64,000 nt of DNA, taken from NCBI GenBank assembly GCA_002257045.1, contig NCHD01000005.1:1-64000 (forward strand), given 5' to 3'. The notes beneath the pieces were generated by a model that saw only the letters and a program-made list of their open reading frames with translations, did not search any database and was not told the DNA's origin. The position numbers and the translations under genes are program-made. The DNA is from Hydrogenophilales bacterium 16-61-112. GTDB taxonomy: Bacteria > Pseudomonadota > Gammaproteobacteria > Burkholderiales > Thiobacillaceae. This document shows positions 7,639 through 52,066 of the stretch, one piece after another. Position 1 is the stretch's first letter, and each line of letters opens with the position of its first letter.

Positions 7639-8571
7639 TCAAACAACCGCTTCTTCTTTCTTTTCGATGGGCTTGATGAAATGCTCGCGCTTGACGCCGA
7701 GCATCAGCAGTAGCGGGGAGGCAACGAGAACCGATGAATAGATGCCGAACATGATGCCGATGGTGAGCGCCAGCGCGAAGTTGTGCAGCGCCTCGCCGCC
7801 GAAGAAAAACATGGCCAGCACCATGAGCTGGGTCGAACCGTGGGTGATGATAGTGCGGCTCATGGTGCGAGTGATGGCGTCGTCGATGATCTCGGGAATC
7901 GTGGCGCCGCGCATCTTGCGGATGTTTTCGCGAATCCGGTCGAACACGACGACCGACTCGTTGACCGAGTAACCCAGGACAGCCAGCACGCCCGCCAGCA
8001 CGGTGAGGGTGAATTCCCACTGGAAGAACGCGAACACGCCCAGGATGATGACGATGTCATGCATGTTGGCGAGCATGCCGGCCACCGCGAAGCGCCATTC
8101 GAAGCGAATCGCCAGATAGGCCATGATGCCGAAGGCGACCACCAGCAGCGCCAGCGCACCGTTGTCGTAGAGTTCCTTGCCGACCTGCGGGCCGACGAAG
8201 TCGACGCGCTTGAGCTCGACTGTACTGTCGGCGGCTTGCAGGGCAGCCATCACGCGATTGCTGGTTTCAGCTGCATTGGTCTGGCCTTTGTTGGGCAGGC
8301 GGATCAGCACATCGTGGCTGGTGCCGAAGTTCTGCACCGATATTTCCGGCAGGCCGGTTTTTTCCAGCGTGCTTCGAACCGCCGGCAGGTTGGCGGCCTG
8401 GCTGTAGCGCACTTCGATCACGGTGCCGCCGGTGAAGTCGACGCCAAAGTTGAGCCCCTTGTCCCACAGCGCCCATATCGAGAACAGGAAGGTGAGCAGG
8501 GAAATGGCCGTTGTCGCCTTGCCCCAGCTCATGAAGGGGATGGTTTTTCTGAAGGGGAAAAATTCCAGCAT
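7639..8571 (-). CDS. secF: Protein translocase subunit SecF
   Basis: RND-like partner of SecD that uses the proton gradient to help complete Sec-dependent export. It has an N-terminal transmembrane helix, the block GVDFTGGTVIEVRY, a periplasmic domain and five further C-terminal membrane helices, including the conserved VNESVVVFDRIREN region. The 310-residue length is normal. It starts 9 bp after the secD stop on the same strand, forming the standard yajC-secD-secF operon. Confidence 0.96.
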   Translation of the reverse strand: MLEFFPFRKTIPFMSWGKATTAISLLTFLFSIWALWDKGLNFGVDFTGGTVIEVRYSQAANLPAVRSTLEKTGLPEISVQNFGTSHDVLIRLPNKGQTNAAETSNRVMAALQAADSTVELKRVDFVGPQVGKELYDNGALALLVVAFGIMAYLAIRFEWRFAVAGMLANMHDIVIILGVFAFFQWEFTLTVLAGVLAVLGYSVNESVVVFDRIRENIRKMRGATIPEIIDDAITRTMSRTIITHGSTQLMVLAMFFFGGEALHNFALALTIGIMFGIYSSVLVASPLLLMLGVKREHFIKPIEKKEEAVV

Positions 8572-34893: not shown

Positions 34894-35523
34894 TCAGTCT
34901 GGACGCAGCAGCAGGCGGTCGAGTTCCGCCTGGACTGCATCCAGCGGCTGCCAGCCGTCGGTTAAGCGGTCGAGCCGGTCGCCGCGCTGCAGGATCAGGG
35001 TGGGAAAGCCGCGCACACCGGCCTTGCGCGATTGCGCGAAATGCGCCTGGGTTTTGGCGCGGGTGGCGTCGCTGTCAAACGCATGCAAGAACATGGCGGC
35101 GTCGATGCCGAGCCCGGCGGCCAGTTCGGCCAGCATGGCAGACTGAGTGACGTCGCGGCCTTCAGCATAAAACGCGCTCTGGATCGCCTTGAACATCGCG
35201 AAGATATTGCCCGGGTCGAGCCCGCCTGCGGTCACCACGGCGCGGCTGGCGGGTTCGGTGTCGTAGATGAAACCGTCCGGCAGCGCGTGGTCGAACCGAA
35301 ACGATTGGCCGCTGCGCTCGTGTACTTGATGCCAGTGATGCAGCCTATCCTCGCGTGCTTGTGCGGTTAGCGGCGCGGTTTCGCCAGGATGCAAACCGCC
35401 CAGCACCAACGCGATTTTCAGGCGCTCGTGATAGGCCTCGCGCACGGCCTCAATCACTGGCGAAAAGCCCCAGCACCAGGAACACATGGGATCGGCGAAA
35501 TACCAGATACAGGGCGTGTTCAT
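34894..35523 (-). CDS. DsbA family (FrnE-like) thioredoxin-fold protein
   Basis: Cytoplasmic oxidoreductase-like protein of 209 residues without a signal peptide. CxxC active site Cys14-Ser-Trp-Cys17 in DPMCSWCWGF, and cis-Pro region VRGFPTLIL. The CSWCWGF pattern matches the DsbA/FrnE subgroup often annotated only as DsbA family protein. Substrate unknown. Confidence 0.88.
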   Translation of the reverse strand: MNTPCIWYFADPMCSWCWGFSPVIEAVREAYHERLKIALVLGGLHPGETAPLTAQAREDRLHHWHQVHERSGQSFRFDHALPDGFIYDTEPASRAVVTAGGLDPGNIFAMFKAIQSAFYAEGRDVTQSAMLAELAAGLGIDAAMFLHAFDSDATRAKTQAHFAQSRKAGVRGFPTLILQRGDRLDRLTDGWQPLDAVQAELDRLLLRPD

Positions 35524-35600
35524 ACGTTTCGTTGAGAGACCTGCTGGGGTTGTAGTGCCCTCAGTCTGCGGCGGGGCGTGATGAAAGTATAGCCATCCGT

Positions 35601-36365
35601 TCAGATCAGGTTTAACCGCATCGCTCGGGCAATCGCCTGGGCTCGGTTCGAGACTTCTAATTTGGTGTAGCAGTTCGTGATATGGAATTTCACGGTACGT
35701 TCCGAGACAGCCAGGATCATGCCGATCTCCCAGGCTGTTTTGCCTTCTTTCAGCCAGTTGAGGACGTCAAGCTCACGCACGCTTAGTGAAGGGATTGCCT
35801 CTTCCTGATCGCCGCTGCACGCCCGCTGCACGAGATCATGGAGGTGCGGCAAGGCAAAACGAAGCGCTTCCGAGTGCGCATCCGAGATCGTCTCGCGGCC
35901 CGTTTCCAGGCAAATATAGCTCGCCTCCTTGCTTTGTTTTGTCGGACGCGAAGCGTAGGCAATGCCACGCTTGAGGCCATAGTCTTCTGATAAATGCAAA
36001 AGCGCTTGTACTTTGCCGGATGTCTCCGGGCGGGTATGCGAAGCAACGGCTTCGGCCCACGAGTAGGGAGCCAGCGAGTTCAGGCCGCGTGCAAACACCG
36101 GGTCGATTTTTGCATACTCCTGTTTTGAATACGTGCTCAGATACTCCGGCGAGAATCCCAGCGAGAATGTGCGTGTAGTCTGTTCCAGCACGCTGCCAGA
36201 CACACGCAAAGCGCCCACGATGCTGGCCTGAAACGGGATGATGGCATCCAGTCGGTTGAGCGCGGTGACCACGTCATCTTCATGTCGCGCAACGCGGCAA
36301 AATTCGATGAATTCCAGCAACCGATACAGGTCGTTGCGCGACAGTACTCGTTCCTGGACGCTCAC
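35601..36365 (-). CDS. LuxR-type autoinducer-binding transcriptional regulator (no luxI in view)
   Basis: Two-domain quorum-sensing-type regulator of 254 residues. The N-terminal part carries conserved acyl-homoserine-lactone receptor positions: Tyr residues in EYLSTYSKQEY, the DP pair in AKIDPVF, Trp in YSWAEA, and Gly in GLKRGIAYA. The C-terminal LuxR helix-turn-helix is SVRELDVLNWLKEGKTAWEI...SERTVKFHI. GTG at 36365 was preferred over ATG at 36410 because GGGAGGG lies before it. It is divergent from a two-gene operon that has a lux-box-like site. No synthase gene is present in the window, so it may be a solo receptor. Confidence 0.88.
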   Translation of the reverse strand: MSVQERVLSRNDLYRLLEFIEFCRVARHEDDVVTALNRLDAIIPFQASIVGALRVSGSVLEQTTRTFSLGFSPEYLSTYSKQEYAKIDPVFARGLNSLAPYSWAEAVASHTRPETSGKVQALLHLSEDYGLKRGIAYASRPTKQSKEASYICLETGRETISDAHSEALRFALPHLHDLVQRACSGDQEEAIPSLSVRELDVLNWLKEGKTAWEIGMILAVSERTVKFHITNCYTKLEVSNRAQAIARAMRLNLI

Positions 36366-36432
36366 GCTTACCCACCCTCCCTGAATCAAATTGCCCGACA
36401 GCCAACACACACCGCAATCTTGCCGGGCAGCA

Positions 36433-36478
36433 ACCTGTCCGAAAGGACAGTTTACCGCACCATCGTAAAGCGAATAAT
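36433..36478 (+). promoter_or_regulatory. Lux-box-like operator and promoter
   Basis: A 20-bp element ACCTGTCCGAAAGGACAGTT (36433-36452) contains perfect arms CTGTCC/GGACAG and the CT-N12-AG spacing of lux/las-rhl boxes. A -10 box AATAAT is at 36473-36478. With transcription starting near 36485, the palindrome is centred at about -42.5, the standard position for LuxR-activated promoters. It serves the gene at 36515 and could also affect the divergent luxR gene. Confidence 0.65.
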
Positions 36479-36514
36479 CCGTCCCAGTTAATCACGTCGA
36501 AGGACTGAGATGTC

Positions 36515-37015
36515 ATGTTGCAAAACCATCTGAAAGCGATCTTTGTCGACATTTACATGACCGGGAATATCGTCCTGTTCCTGGTGGCGGTTTACACGCT
36601 CATGTATGAGTCGCATTCACTGGCATGGGCTGGCACCGCGATTGCCAGTGGCGTGGTTACAGGTCTATTCGGCATGTATTACGCCGGCCGGCTTCCGCGT
36701 ACCTCGCGGCATATTCCCTTGCTGCTTGTTTTGGCCTTGCTGGGAAGCGCGGCATTGGCCAAACGCATGAACGTCCCCTTCCAATTCCTGACCGACCCTT
36801 GCGGGCAAGCCTCCCGCAAGCTGGGCATTGCGCATCAGGCGGGGCTTCCGCTGGGGCTACAGATTTTTGGTTATTACACCAATACCGTATTCCCGACCCT
36901 GATCGTGATTGATCAAAACGGCAAGATCGTATTCGTGGATCAAACCGAGAACTACAGGGTAAGGCCTGAACTTGATGTCGTGCTAGGCAAGATGGGAGTC
37001 CTCAGTGGAACGTGA
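36515..37015 (+). CDS. Membrane protein with redoxin-like C-terminus, unknown function
   Basis: Protein of 166 residues. There are three hydrophobic segments (about 13-32, 36-58 and 67-83). The C-terminal part, about residues 84-155, resembles the last half of AhpC/TSA-type peroxiredoxin-like proteins: VPFQFLTDPCGQASRKLG, FPTLIVIDQNGKIVFVDQT and ENYRVRPE. The N-terminal half of such a domain, with its catalytic cysteine, is absent; only Cys96 is present. It is either a real degenerate fusion or the product of an in-frame deletion. It is downstream of a lux-box-like promoter and overlaps the next gene by 11 bp. Confidence 0.65.
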   Translation: MLQNHLKAIFVDIYMTGNIVLFLVAVYTLMYESHSLAWAGTAIASGVVTGLFGMYYAGRLPRTSRHIPLLLVLALLGSAALAKRMNVPFQFLTDPCGQASRKLGIAHQAGLPLGLQIFGYYTNTVFPTLIVIDQNGKIVFVDQTENYRVRPELDVVLGKMGVLSGT

Positions 37016-37460
37016 ACTGTGTCCGCCAAGGCTTCTTCAGCGTTTGGCCAACTTGTTCAAGTCGCCGCTTCTGGGGGCGACCATATCCATTCATGATCGC
37101 CCGATTCGGGTGGAATGGACGCAACGTGCTCAACGCGAACTGGAGCAACGGTCATCGCCACTGGTGGCCGAACTGGAGGTGTATTTTTCATGCATGGTGA
37201 AAATGAATATCCACTTCCTGGATGCGCCGAAAAACGACAATCCAGCAACAACCGTAAGCGATAAGCTGCTTATATATTTTCGCCCTGTCACGTCGACGGA
37301 ATGCAGCCTGGAGCTTGGCGCTAGATTGGGGCGCCAGCCGGAGATGGAATTACACAATAAAGCGGTGGCGGGGATGGTTCCCAAGCACGTTTTTATTGAT
37401 TTCAAAGACGGGAAATGGAGGGGCGAGTTTGGTTACGATGATTGCAAAAAGCCAGGATGA
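37005..37460 (+). CDS. Hypothetical protein in LuxR-linked operon
   Basis: Protein of 151 residues starting at a GTG that overlaps the previous gene, preceded by GGGAG. I recognise no family. It has no signal peptide or membrane segment and is mixed alpha/beta with several charged stretches and two internal Cys. Overlap with 36515 indicates co-translation and so probable control by the same lux-type promoter. Confidence 0.7.
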   Translation: MERELCPPRLLQRLANLFKSPLLGATISIHDRPIRVEWTQRAQRELEQRSSPLVAELEVYFSCMVKMNIHFLDAPKNDNPATTVSDKLLIYFRPVTSTECSLELGARLGRQPEMELHNKAVAGMVPKHVFIDFKDGKWRGEFGYDDCKKPG

Positions 37461-37495
37461 CGCGTTCCCTATGTCGATTGACCTCCATCAGATCA

Positions 37496-37681
37496 TCAGG
37501 GCTTGGGTGAGTCGTCGGATGCATCCCTGGATGGGTGCGGGGTGTCGTCGTCCATGATGACGCTGTGCGCCGGGCCTTCGAGATCGTCGAACTGGCCGCT
37601 TTGGGTGGCCCACAACATGACCCAGGCGATGATGCCGACAAGGGCGAGGCTCAGGGGGATGAGCAGGATGAGGATATCCAT
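37496..37681 (-). CDS. ccoS: cbb3-type cytochrome oxidase assembly protein CcoS
   Basis: Short membrane protein (61 residues): one helix at about residues 2-24 (ILILLIPLSLALVGIIAWV), followed by the family pattern WATQSGQFDDLEGP. The ATG at 37681 is 8 bases past the ccoI stop; the longer upstream frame reads back into ccoI. Pairing with ccoI supports the call. The oxidase structural genes ccoNOP are not in the window. Confidence 0.88.
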   Translation of the reverse strand: MDILILLIPLSLALVGIIAWVMLWATQSGQFDDLEGPAHSVIMDDDTPHPSRDASDDSPKP

Positions 37682-37723
37682 GAGCGGGTTAGCGGGGAGC
37701 AGGAAGCGGCGAGGGGAGAGCGG
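37681..37723. repeat. Heptamer array across the ccoI/ccoS junction
   Basis: TGAGCGG, one extra base, then TTAGCGG, GGAGCAG, GAAGCGG, CGAGGGG, AGAGCGG. Same type as the arrays at 7558 and 10405. Here it covers the ccoS start codon and encodes the last residues of ccoI. Confidence 0.55.
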
Positions 37724-40172
37724 GCACGGCGGCTGGCGGCTTGGGTTGGTAGTCGGACAGGCGCAGCGCATTCAGCACCACCAGCAGCGAGCTAACTGAC
37801 ATGCCGATGCCGGCCAGCCACGGCGTGACATGCCCCAGCGCGGCGGCGGGGATGGCGACGAGGTTGTAGGCGAGCGCCCAGCCCAGATTCTGGCGAATGA
37901 TGTGCTGGGTCTTGCGGGCGAGGGCGACGCCGTCGGCCAGCGTGGCGAGGCGCGAGCCGAGCATGACCATGTCGGCGGCGGCTTGCGCCACGTCGGCGCC
38001 TTCGCCCATGGCGATGGAGACCTGGGCACCCGCCAGCACCGGTGCGTCGTTGATGCCATCGCCCACCATGGCGACGATGCGACGCTGCTGTTGCAGCGCC
38101 TTGACGTAAGCGAGCTTGTCTTCCGGTAGCGCCCCGGCGTGCCAATCGGTGATGCCGAGTTGCTGCGCGGTGGCTTTCACTGCCCCCTCGGCATCGCCCG
38201 ACAGCAGGTGCAGGCGCAGGCCTTGTTGGCGCAGGGCGGCGAGCGCGGCGGGAGCATCGGCGCGCGGCGTGTCGGCCAGCGCAAACCAGGCGACCAGCTC
38301 ATTGCCTTCGGCCAGAGCCACCCAGCTGGCACCGTCCGAGGCTTCGGGCGGGGTGTGATCGGACGCCACGAAGCGGGGTGAGCCGAGGCGATAGGTGCGC
38401 TTGCCGATTTCGCCTTCGACGCCGCGTCCCGGCGTGTTGCGGATGCCGCTGGCAGTGAGGGGCGAGTGGGCAGCTTCACGCAGCGCGCGCGCAATGAGAT
38501 GTTCGGACCCCGCTTCGAGCGCAGCGGCGATCTCACTGACTTCGTGTTCACTGCGTCCATTCAGCGGTATCACCCGGCGCACCGACAGGCGCCCCAGCGT
38601 CAGCGTGCCGGTCTTGTCGAACACCAGATCGGTGGCGCGCGCCAGGGTTTCCAGGGCATGGCCGCGCGTGGTCAAGAGGCCCAGCCGGGTCAGCCGCCCG
38701 GTGGCGGTGGTGAGCGCGGCAGGCGTGGCGAGGCCCAACGCACAGGGGCAGGTGACAACCAGAATCGACACCACGATCCACAGCACTTTCGACGGGTCGA
38801 TGACGTACCAGGCCACCCCGACCAGCACGGTAATCAGCAGCAGCAGACCGACGAACCAGGCGGCGGCGCGGTCGGCCAGCTGGCCGATGCGCGGCTTCTC
38901 GCTCTGCGCGCGGTCGAGCAGGCGCACGATGGCCGCCAGCCGGGTGTCCGCACCGAGCTTGTCCACCCGCACCACCAGCGGGCTGGCCTGGTTGAGGCTG
39001 CCGCCGACCACTTTTGCACCTTTGCTCTTCGAGACCGGCAGCGATTCGCCGGTCAGCATCGCTTCGCTCACCGCGCTGTCGCCGTCGATTACCACGCCGT
39101 CGGCGGGCAGGGTTTCGCCGGGACGCACCAGCACATGGTCGCCCACGGCCAAGCGCGCTACCGGCACCTGTTCCTCGCCGCGCAAAGGCCACTGCGGCAA
39201 TCGCGTGGTGGCGGCGGGGATCAGTTTGACCAGTTCTTCTACCGCTGCACCGGCGCGGCGGCGCGCGTTCATTTCGAGGAAGCGCCCGGTCAAGAGCAGA
39301 AAGATGAACATGGTCACCGAGTCGTAATACACCTCGCCATGGCCAAAGAAAGTGGCGTATACGCTGGCGATGAAAGCGGTGCCGACACCGAGCGCCACCG
39401 GCACGTCCATGCCGAGGGTGCGGCGCTTGAGGTCGCGCCAGGCGCCGATGAAGAACGGCGACGCCGAATACAGCACCACCGGAATGGTCAGGATCAGGCT
39501 CGCCCAGCGCATCAGCAGGCGGATGTCGTCGGTCATGTCGGTGGCGGTGTAGCTCGGCAGCGCGTACATCATCACCTGCATCATGCCGAGCCCGGCGATG
39601 GCCAGCCGCTTGATCGCGGTGTTGCGCTCGCGCTTGTAGATGTCGTCGGAGCGGCCGGGGTCGAACGGGTGGGCGATGTAGCCGATGTCGGACACGGCTT
39701 TCAGAATCGCCGACAGCTGGATCCGGCTGTTGTCCCAGCGCACCCGTGCGCGGCGGGTGGCGTAGTTGATTTCCACCGACAGCACGCCGGGCAGCGCCGC
39801 GATATGGCGCTCGTTCAGCCAGATGCACGCGGCGCAGACGATGTTCTCGAGGATCAGCGCGGCCTCGCGGATGTGTTCCGCTTCCACGCGTACAAAGCTT
39901 TCCTGGATTTCCGGCAGGTCGTACAAGCCCAGTTGCGCCAATTCGGCTTCGGCCACCTGCGGGGTGGCGGGCAGCACGGTGCGGTGGATGTAATACGCGC
40001 CCTGGCCGCTGTCGATGATGGTTTGCGCGACGGCCTGGCAGCCGCGGCAGCAGGTTTGCTGGGGCTTTTCTTCGTACTGGATGGGATAGTGGGCACCGTC
40101 AGGCACCGGCAGGCCGCAGTGAAAGCAGGCCAAAAAAGAGGGGGCGTCCGTGTGCCCAGGAGAGGAACTCAC
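37689..40172 (-). CDS. ccoI: Copper-translocating P-type ATPase for cbb3 oxidase assembly
   Basis: P1B-type ATPase that supplies copper for cbb3 cytochrome oxidase maturation. The N-terminal region has a CxxC pair (CFHCG), a CCRGC cluster and a heavy-metal-associated domain with CAACIW. The membrane metal site is Cys475-Pro-Cys477 in TCPCALGL. The phosphorylated Asp519 is in DKTGTLT, and the hinge is GDGINDAPVL. At 827 residues with the FixI/CcoI-type cysteine-rich N-terminus and an adjacent ccoS, it is assigned as CcoI rather than a copper exporter. Confidence 0.92.
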   Translation of the reverse strand: MSSSPGHTDAPSFLACFHCGLPVPDGAHYPIQYEEKPQQTCCRGCQAVAQTIIDSGQGAYYIHRTVLPATPQVAEAELAQLGLYDLPEIQESFVRVEAEHIREAALILENIVCAACIWLNERHIAALPGVLSVEINYATRRARVRWDNSRIQLSAILKAVSDIGYIAHPFDPGRSDDIYKRERNTAIKRLAIAGLGMMQVMMYALPSYTATDMTDDIRLLMRWASLILTIPVVLYSASPFFIGAWRDLKRRTLGMDVPVALGVGTAFIASVYATFFGHGEVYYDSVTMFIFLLLTGRFLEMNARRRAGAAVEELVKLIPAATTRLPQWPLRGEEQVPVARLAVGDHVLVRPGETLPADGVVIDGDSAVSEAMLTGESLPVSKSKGAKVVGGSLNQASPLVVRVDKLGADTRLAAIVRLLDRAQSEKPRIGQLADRAAAWFVGLLLLITVLVGVAWYVIDPSKVLWIVVSILVVTCPCALGLATPAALTTATGRLTRLGLLTTRGHALETLARATDLVFDKTGTLTLGRLSVRRVIPLNGRSEHEVSEIAAALEAGSEHLIARALREAAHSPLTASGIRNTPGRGVEGEIGKRTYRLGSPRFVASDHTPPEASDGASWVALAEGNELVAWFALADTPRADAPAALAALRQQGLRLHLLSGDAEGAVKATAQQLGITDWHAGALPEDKLAYVKALQQQRRIVAMVGDGINDAPVLAGAQVSIAMGEGADVAQAAADMVMLGSRLATLADGVALARKTQHIIRQNLGWALAYNLVAIPAAALGHVTPWLAGIGMSVSSLLVVLNALRLSDYQPKPPAAVPALPSPLPAPR

Positions 40173-50574: not shown

Positions 50575-50649
50575 GCCGCTTTAGCTCAGGGGTAGAGCAA
50601 CCGCCTTGTAAGCGGTAGGTCGTCAGTTCGAATCCGACAAGCGGCACCA
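50575..50649 (+). tRNA. tRNA-Thr (anticodon TGT)
   Basis: Acceptor GCCGCTT (50575-50581) pairs with AAGCGGC (50639-50645), followed by ACCA. Anticodon stem ACCGC/GCGGT encloses CTTGTAA, anticodon TGT. T-arm GTTCGAATC is standard. An integrase gene of the P4/tRNA-targeting type follows, so this tRNA is probably the attachment site. Confidence 0.97.
50627..50649 (+). repeat. Putative attL (3' end of tRNA-Thr)
   Basis: The last 23 bases of the tRNA, from TTCGAATCC to CACCA, recur in degenerate form at 57743-57764, the expected arrangement for an element inserted in a tRNA 3' end. Confidence 0.5.
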
Positions 50650-50684
50650 CTAATACGTTTCACCCAGCATCATGAAGTAACCGG

Positions 50685-50717
50685 AACCCGCATCTAGCAA
50701 TGGATTGCGGGTTTTTT
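50685..50717 (+). terminator. Terminator downstream of tRNA-Thr
   Basis: AACCCGCA (50685-50692) pairs with TGCGGGTT (50706-50713), followed by four T residues. Would end the tRNA transcript inside the element. Confidence 0.75.
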
Positions 50718-50836
50718 GTTGTTTCACGCCGCAACATGGCATAGCATGGAAATACCGTCTATCTGACGGTACGTATGCGCGGTATGTGACATGCCGTCAA
50801 ATCGCCTACCGCCAAAACCCGTGAAAGGTAACTGCC

Positions 50837-52066
50837 ATGCCGCTATCCGACCAGGCAGCAAAGAAAGCCAAGCCAGCCGACAAGCCCTACAAGATGACCG
50901 ATGAAAAGGGGCTGTATCTGCTGGTGAATGCTGCCGGCAAGTATTGGCGGATGGATTACCGCCACGATGGCAAGCGCAAGACTCTGGCGCTGGGGGTCTA
51001 TCCAGACGTGAGCCTTGCCCGCGCCCGTGAGAAGCGCGACGAAGCCCGCACCCTGCTGGCGGATGGCACAGACCCAAGCGAAGCGCGCAAGCATCGCAAG
51101 CTGGCTGATATGGCCGCCAGTGCAAACAGTTTTGAGGCCGTCGCACGTGAATGGCACGCTGGCAAGTCGAAGTCGTGGGCGAAGGTGACAGCCGACAAAG
51201 CCATGACCCACCTGCAAGCCTATGCATTCCCCGAGGTGGGGCACTTGCCTGTCGCCAGCGTAAAGGCGGCACACCTGCTGGCGATGCTGCGCAAGATTGA
51301 GTCCAAGGGCATCGCCTACACCGCCACCCGCTTGCGGGAAATGTGCGGGCAGGTATTCCGTTATGCCGTGGCGACCGGCAGGGCGGAAGATAACCCGGCT
51401 GCGCACCTGCTGGGGGCAATGCAAAAGCCCGCCACCACCCACCGGCCAGCCATTACCGAACGGCGCGAGTTTGGCGCTTTCCTGCGTGATCTGCGGGCGG
51501 CCACCGGCTTTGAGCCTGTTACACGGTATGCGGCCTATTTCGCCATGCTGACGATGGTGCGGGCGCAAGAGTTTCGCTTTGCACGCTGGGAGGAAATAGA
51601 CGTTGAGGCGCGGGAATGGAAAGTGCCAGCGCATCGTATGAAGGTCGGCAAGACACTGCCAGCGCACACCGTTCCCTTGTCACGACAGGCGCTTGAGTTG
51701 CTGGACGAACTGCGCTTGCTGACCGGACACACCCCATTTCTGTTTCCCAAGTCCAAGGGCTACGGCGAAGCCGAAGTCATATCCGAAAACACCGTCGGCA
51801 AGCTGTTGAACAATCTGGGCTACCAAGGCCGCCAGTGCGTGCATGGCTTTCGCGCGTCGGCGCGCTCGATCCTGAGCGAGCAGGGTTGGAGTGTGGAAGC
51901 GATGGAACGCCAGTTAGACCACAAGGAAGCCAGCGGCACCGTGGCAGCCTACGCCCGCAGCCAGCATCTGCCCGAGCGGCGCAAGATGATGCAGCAATGG
52001 GCTGATACCTGCGACGCGCTTGAGGCGGGTGGGGAAGTGATAACGCTGCATGACAAGACGGCGTGA
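50837..52066 (+). CDS. Tyrosine-type site-specific integrase
   Basis: P4-family integrase of 409 residues. The N-terminal DUF4102-type domain contains KMTDEKGLYLLVNAAGKYWRMDYRH split over residues 20-45, then a SAM-like core-binding domain. The catalytic domain has the first Arg in MVRAQEFRFARWEEID, HGFRASARSIL (His and Arg) and LDHKEASGTVAAYARSQ with the nucleophilic Tyr. Adjacent to tRNA-Thr, which such integrases commonly target. All catalytic residues appear intact even though the right-end repeat is degenerate. Confidence 0.93.
   Translation: MPLSDQAAKKAKPADKPYKMTDEKGLYLLVNAAGKYWRMDYRHDGKRKTLALGVYPDVSLARAREKRDEARTLLADGTDPSEARKHRKLADMAASANSFEAVAREWHAGKSKSWAKVTADKAMTHLQAYAFPEVGHLPVASVKAAHLLAMLRKIESKGIAYTATRLREMCGQVFRYAVATGRAEDNPAAHLLGAMQKPATTHRPAITERREFGAFLRDLRAATGFEPVTRYAAYFAMLTMVRAQEFRFARWEEIDVEAREWKVPAHRMKVGKTLPAHTVPLSRQALELLDELRLLTGHTPFLFPKSKGYGEAEVISENTVGKLLNNLGYQGRQCVHGFRASARSILSEQGWSVEAMERQLDHKEASGTVAAYARSQHLPERRKMMQQWADTCDALEAGGEVITLHDKTA

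Follow-up and report, generated by a model that had tools for sequence, protein, structure and literature searches.

CviR of Chromobacterium violaceum, for which an ideal site of CTGNCCNNNNGGNCAG has been given (PMC12114271), and the LuxR solos (PMC4338825, PMC10134790) are the described systems closest to the locus analysed here. The LuxR-type regulator of the locus has the recognition-helix stretch SERTVKFH in common with CviR, and its putative operator fits the ideal CviR site, although CviR is paired with CviI and no synthase was found for the regulator studied here. As with the solos, PF03472 is combined with PF00196, no luxI was found, and a 20-bp palindrome precedes the neighbouring operon. 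In contrast, a membrane redoxin or the small-protein family found here is not met as a neighbour of a solo in the available text of PMC4338825 and PMC10134790, and the terms redoxin and ketoacyl are absent from the main text of the latter. Judged by titles and the beginnings of abstracts, none of the open-licence papers listed describes the locus, a statement that does not extend to all print.

The analysed stretch of DNA, 64,000 nucleotides long, is called the window. Two other genomes of the same order are referred to throughout: G087, from another family, which carries the orthologous locus (L015; G087:C8:28000-46000), and G103, which carries a luxI-luxR pair. The features of the locus are as follows.

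34894-35523, minus strand: dsbA-like flanking gene (PF01323)
35524-37495, no strand: accessory islet, with ends set by the flanking genes and not mapped exactly
35601-36365, minus strand: luxR solo with autoinducer-binding domain and LuxR-type HTH (254 aa, GTG start at 36365)
36433-36452, no strand: lux box ACCTGTCCGAAAGGACAGTT, a CviR-type palindrome, identical in G087 and one base off in G103
36451-36478, plus strand: candidate promoter TTTACC-16 nt-AATAAT from a consensus scan, TTTACC overlapping the box end
36515-37015, plus strand: gene 1, a membrane redoxin remnant of 166 aa with an in-frame internal deletion relative to the G087 homologue
37005-37460, plus strand: gene 2, of an uncharacterised small-protein family (151 aa), with its GTG start inside the end of gene 1
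37496-37771, minus strand: flanking gene that we take to be ccoS-like

In our best reading, which we consider probable, the window holds an acquired and partly eroded LuxR-solo islet that controls a shrunken operon. The solo, when loaded with its signal, would bind the CviR-type lux box that separates luxR from the divergent gene 1. The signal would be diffusible, probably an acyl-homoserine lactone (AHL) from other cells, and the bound LuxR would recruit RNA polymerase to the promoter of genes 1 and 2. The fuller form, represented by G087, would have genes for an intact membrane redoxin, a ketosynthase and a haloperoxidase-like protein downstream of the same box, and in the window species all that is left of this run would be a redoxin lacking the active site and the small gene 2. 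The insert looks like a cut-down relic of a larger signal-controlled cluster, because one of its probable target genes has lost its catalytic centre. Read in this way, the locus would provide a LuxR solo whose operator is conserved in sequence and whose target unit is defined, and a case of a regulator and operator outliving the catalytic part of their target gene.

The regulator and its putative ligand

The luxR product matched PF03472 (1.6e-13) and PF00196 (1.6e-19), both above the Pfam cut-off, and is 69% identical to its G087 orthologue over the full length. CviR was its top solved-structure match (8.7e-24), followed by QscR and RhlR, and the stretch SERTVKFH is also present in the regulators of G087 and G103. 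The top NCBIfam match was EpsA (TIGR03020, XrtB/PEP-CTERM-associated), yet it scored 77.9 bits against a curated cut-off of 170 and spanned residues 159-265 only. At E 1e-45, an orthologue of the regulator was found in two of 399 genomes of the order (the window's own and G087) and in one of 369 genomes of the class (its own). Two pattern scans of genome contigs for the regulator returned 18 and 65 stretches, none of which was confirmed; such scans may leave out near records. A plasmid search with LuxR yielded 721 records, all below 60% identity.

The initial annotation had called the regulator a LuxR solo without luxI, and both the domain content and the genome-scale searches agree with this. 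Neither the PF00765 profile nor the LuxI of G103 found a match in the window's own genome, and PF00765 found none in G087 either; these searches covered synthases of the luxI type. The profile search works, as seven of 100 relatives pass its cut-off (11 match); none of the 14 named control genomes gave a match. At 94% completeness, the draft genome (2.9 Mb, 206 contigs) may have missed a luxI.

Nine residues, listed in TraR numbering in PMC4338825, are invariant in quorum-sensing LuxR proteins. Eight of the nine are kept in the LuxR of the window and in that of G087, as mapped by eye via alignments of CviR, QscR and the G103 regulator (TraR itself was not in the alignment, and L182 and G188 were placed by spacing from E178). 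The position of TraR W57 is Y in the window, F in G087 and W in CviR. Given this replacement, the ligand is perhaps not an AHL, and the regulator could instead respond, in the manner of PAB-type or PluR/PauR-type solos, to a compound that is plant-derived, fatty or made by a pathway. PluR/PauR-type solos provide the analogy for a pathway-made, non-AHL ligand. The lack of a PF00765 match in both genomes points in the same direction, and the ketosynthase behind the same box in G087 means that a pathway could make the ligand. On the other hand, the five AHL-pocket residues other than W57 are kept in the window LuxR, Y or F in place of W keeps the residue aromatic, and the most similar operator found outside this locus precedes a luxI (that of G103). 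PAB solos, moreover, have M at position 57 and W at position 61 (PMC10134790), which are not seen here. We therefore regard a non-AHL ligand as possible but somewhat unlikely, and an AHL as the likely rather than the settled ligand of the window LuxR.

The putative target genes and the orthologous locus

In L015, a divergent luxR is followed by genes for a 285-aa membrane redoxin, a 249-aa protein, a 436-aa protein, a FabF-like ketosynthase, the 141-aa homologue of gene 2 and a vanadium-haloperoxidase-like protein, in this order, which are presumably co-transcribed. The 249-aa protein has no family, and the 436-aa protein has a nitroreductase match below the cut-off. The start of the redoxin gene was taken at 8064, since it matches the start in the window; a longer frame from 7917 would enclose the box. 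The search of relatives for the luxR-box-gene arrangement, proposed together with the initial annotation, found it in one genome, G087, with a larger gene set behind the box.

Gene 1 aligns with the G087 redoxin with 67% identity over the aligned part, interrupted by an in-frame gap of 123 columns. The gap takes out the fourth hydrophobic segment together with half of the redoxin domain, the first, including the CxxC motif (C166 and C169 of G087), and the product of gene 1 has a single cysteine, C96. Correspondingly, Redoxin and AhpC-TSA are below the cut-off for gene 1, whereas AhpC-TSA matches the G087 protein at 7.1e-22; the latter is a full-length AhpC/TSA-type redoxin that has both the CxxC and all four hydrophobic segments. 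A catalytic redoxin or peroxiredoxin is recognized by a thioredoxin fold with active-site cysteines. As the CxxC region is missing, the gene 1 product cannot do CxxC chemistry, and we infer that it has lost redoxin activity. An assembly error is a conceivable source of the gap. The initial annotation of gene 1 as a membrane/redoxin-like protein is thus right as to kinship, but the protein is internally deleted and without the CxxC.

A homologue of gene 1 was found in two of 100 genomes (the window's own and G087, the latter copy being full-length), and the short form had no second copy among them. There was no match to gene 1 in 55 genomes of the same genus, and none was found on plasmids. A plasmid search with the G087 redoxin gave 53 records, none covering 80% of the query, and that with the 436-aa protein gave 19 records, two of which were inspected and had no similar neighbourhood.

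Genes 1 and 2 overlap (the stop of gene 1 ends at 37015 and the GTG of gene 2 is at 37005), in agreement with the translational overlap that had been noted earlier. Gene 2 is 55% identical to its G087 homologue and had no Pfam or NCBIfam match. To this extent the earlier description as an unrecognised 151-residue protein stands; it is, however, a member of a family present in 39 of 399 genomes of the order, its own included, according to a model built from the window and G087 sequences. No match to the G087 homologue was found on plasmids. Structure predictions made without an alignment had mean pLDDT values of 45.5 and 50.3 and were left aside, that of gene 2 as too poor.

We also considered whether gene 2 is a steady partner of this LuxR, and rejected this. 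Twenty of the 38 other places of the family were fetched, the second copy in the window's own genome included and several ending at contig ends, and none had the other genes of the locus (tblastn at 1e-4 with luxR, the redoxin, the 249-aa and 436-aa proteins, the ketosynthase and the vanadium haloperoxidase as queries). This second copy (L065:9675-10646, on contig C152 of G000, the window's genome) is weaker and lies beside a frame that is TetR-like by reading.

The same genes could alternatively form a compact functional operon under LuxR control, in which a shortened redoxin-like membrane protein has a new, non-catalytic role beside gene 2. The frame continues through the gap, the genes overlap, and the regulator, the box and both genes are kept without stops. 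We nevertheless think this unlikely: with the CxxC, one of four hydrophobic segments has been lost, and consequently the remnant would lie on the opposite membrane face (according to the predicted topology), and no second copy of the short form was found in the 100 genomes, the one other homologue being full-length. Under our preferred reading of a partly eroded islet, the absence of the three intervening genes from the window would reflect their loss there, although a gain in G087 could also account for the difference.

A further possibility is that the locus is a mobile LuxR-solo module, whose full form in G087 would be a signal-controlled oxidative natural-product pathway (FabF-like ketosynthase, vanadium-haloperoxidase-like enzyme, weakly nitroreductase-like protein and membrane redoxin), and whose window form would be shrunken with gene 2 as the functional core. 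We consider this quite doubtful. If true, bacteria without their own synthase could answer foreign AHLs, and gene 2, as the kept output, would give a regulatory context to an uncharacterised small-protein family across the order. The oxidative and ketosynthase run behind the box in G087 was not matched to a described cluster. As an observation in its own right, the part from the 249-aa protein to the vanadium-haloperoxidase-like protein (L015:8983-14515) is a possible pathway, for which no match to a described one was found.

The putative operator and promoter

The box lies between the divergent luxR and gene 1 (ATG at 36515), and its perfect CTGTCC/GGACAG arms, already pointed out in the initial annotation, are located at 36435-36450. 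A palindrome alone proves little, because perfect 6-bp arms with 4-nt spacing are common (27 in the window). Within the 2.9-Mb genome, CTGTCC-N4-GGACAG had one exact place (36435-36450) and one with a single mismatch (on contig C172), while a control pattern, read backwards, had four places, more than the box arms; box-type sites are therefore not enriched as a class in this genome. A second target with exact box arms was looked for in the genome and not found.

The case is carried by identity with G087 rather than by palindromy. The longest string common to the luxR-gene 1 spacers of the window and G087 is 25 nt (the box plus TACCG), and the second-longest is 8 nt, the spacers being otherwise unalignable. 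For 1000 pairs of dinucleotide shuffles, the longest common string had a mean of 7.9 and a maximum of 12. The box lies 62 bp before the start codon of gene 1 in the window and 61 bp before that of its homologue in G087, although the entire spacers are 149 nt and 584 nt, respectively. The longer G087 spacer is partly explained by an element between luxR and the box (L015:7755-7909), a MITE-like inverted repeat with 25-nt arms that are 96% complementary around 105 nt. Loss of the palindrome upstream of orthologues had been named beforehand as evidence against the operator, and the palindrome is kept in the one orthologue found. Because one orthologous locus was found, this conservation concerns a single pair of loci (plus G103). 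It is extremely improbable that the inverted repeat arose by chance and that luxR has nothing to do with genes 1 and 2, as the 25 identical letters, equally spaced from gene 1 in both genomes, outweigh the frequency of such palindromes in the window and of the reversed control in the genome. From these comparisons, 36433-36452 is very likely a quorum-sensing operator.

The sequence CTGTCCGAAAGGACAG fits the ideal CviR site and is the sole match in each of the window, L015 and L072, the locus of G103 (plus strand; reverse complementation leaves the pattern unchanged). When ACCTGTCC-N4-GGACAGNT was searched in the 399 genomes of the order, four had a match (G000, G087, G280 and G103), and the reversed control matched one genome (G312). 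The G280 box was dismissed as a chance match: the surrounding 20 kb gave no tblastn match to luxR, the redoxin, the ketosynthase or the vanadium haloperoxidase. The box of G103, ACCTGTCCGAAAGGACAGGT, is fully palindromic and differs from the window box by one base. It lies 63 bp before a TTG-started LuxI-family frame (PF00765, 59 bits) that adjoins luxR; thus a near-identical box precedes luxI in G103, a gene absent from the window, and the G103 regulator is 29% identical to the window LuxR. By reading, luxR and luxI of G103 (L072:7717-9204) lie beside chemotaxis-like genes. A near-palindrome scan of four further luxI loci in the order, made without a chance control, showed the arms CTGTCA (L004, L005) and CTGCCC (L006) immediately before luxI, and ACCTGTACAAAAGGACAGGT about 190 bp before luxR in L007, together with a weaker near-palindrome.

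The class-II promoter suggested in the initial annotation has a less firm basis. The AATAAT is present (36473-36478, 16 nt from TTTACC), which places the box centre at about -42.5, but the assignment depends on a weak -10 consensus, and the two promoter-like sites found in the stretch, against 1.1 expected, are about the number given by chance. TTTACC is kept in G087, where the like register has a weaker CAAAAT only. Given this count and the weaker counterpart, a class-II geometry, with the box centred at -42.5 and overlapping the -35 element, is plausible rather than shown. Binding of LuxR to the box would activate this putative promoter.

The islet and its site in the genus

We searched for the flanking genes in 56 genomes of the genus, the window's own included. 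Among the matches listed, 40 of the 55 other genomes had both flanks on a single contig, and the islet was absent at all 41 readable junctions of these 40 genomes. The flank matches were separated by 6-165 bp at 31 junctions and by 1.2-2.3 kb at the other 10, with G037 in both groups. The 10 long junctions and six short ones were fetched, and none matched the window islet by blastn. At eight of the 10 long junctions, by reading, a frame starts like that of L081, which is a nitroreductase by Pfam. In several junctions the nitroreductase gene lies beside a regulator gene that is presumably HxlR-like, and the gap of G010 has a gene that we take to be LysR-like. Across the genus, the dsbA-ccoS gap (35524-37495 in the window; L080-L089) is near-empty or holds the nitroreductase gene, the presumed LysR-like gene or the islet, and is thus a site of variable content.

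The GC content of 35560-37480 is 0.544, compared with 0.602 for the window, and the islet is below the neighbouring genes tested in both GC and GC3. Of 130 overlapping stretches, five have a GC content this low, those covering the islet included, and the value is accordingly low but not extreme. The islet was probably acquired horizontally, as judged from its composition and its distribution in the genus. Elsewhere in the window, at 50575-52066, a tRNA-Thr is followed by a phage-type integrase (PF00589, PF22022), which likely marks one end of an integrated element.
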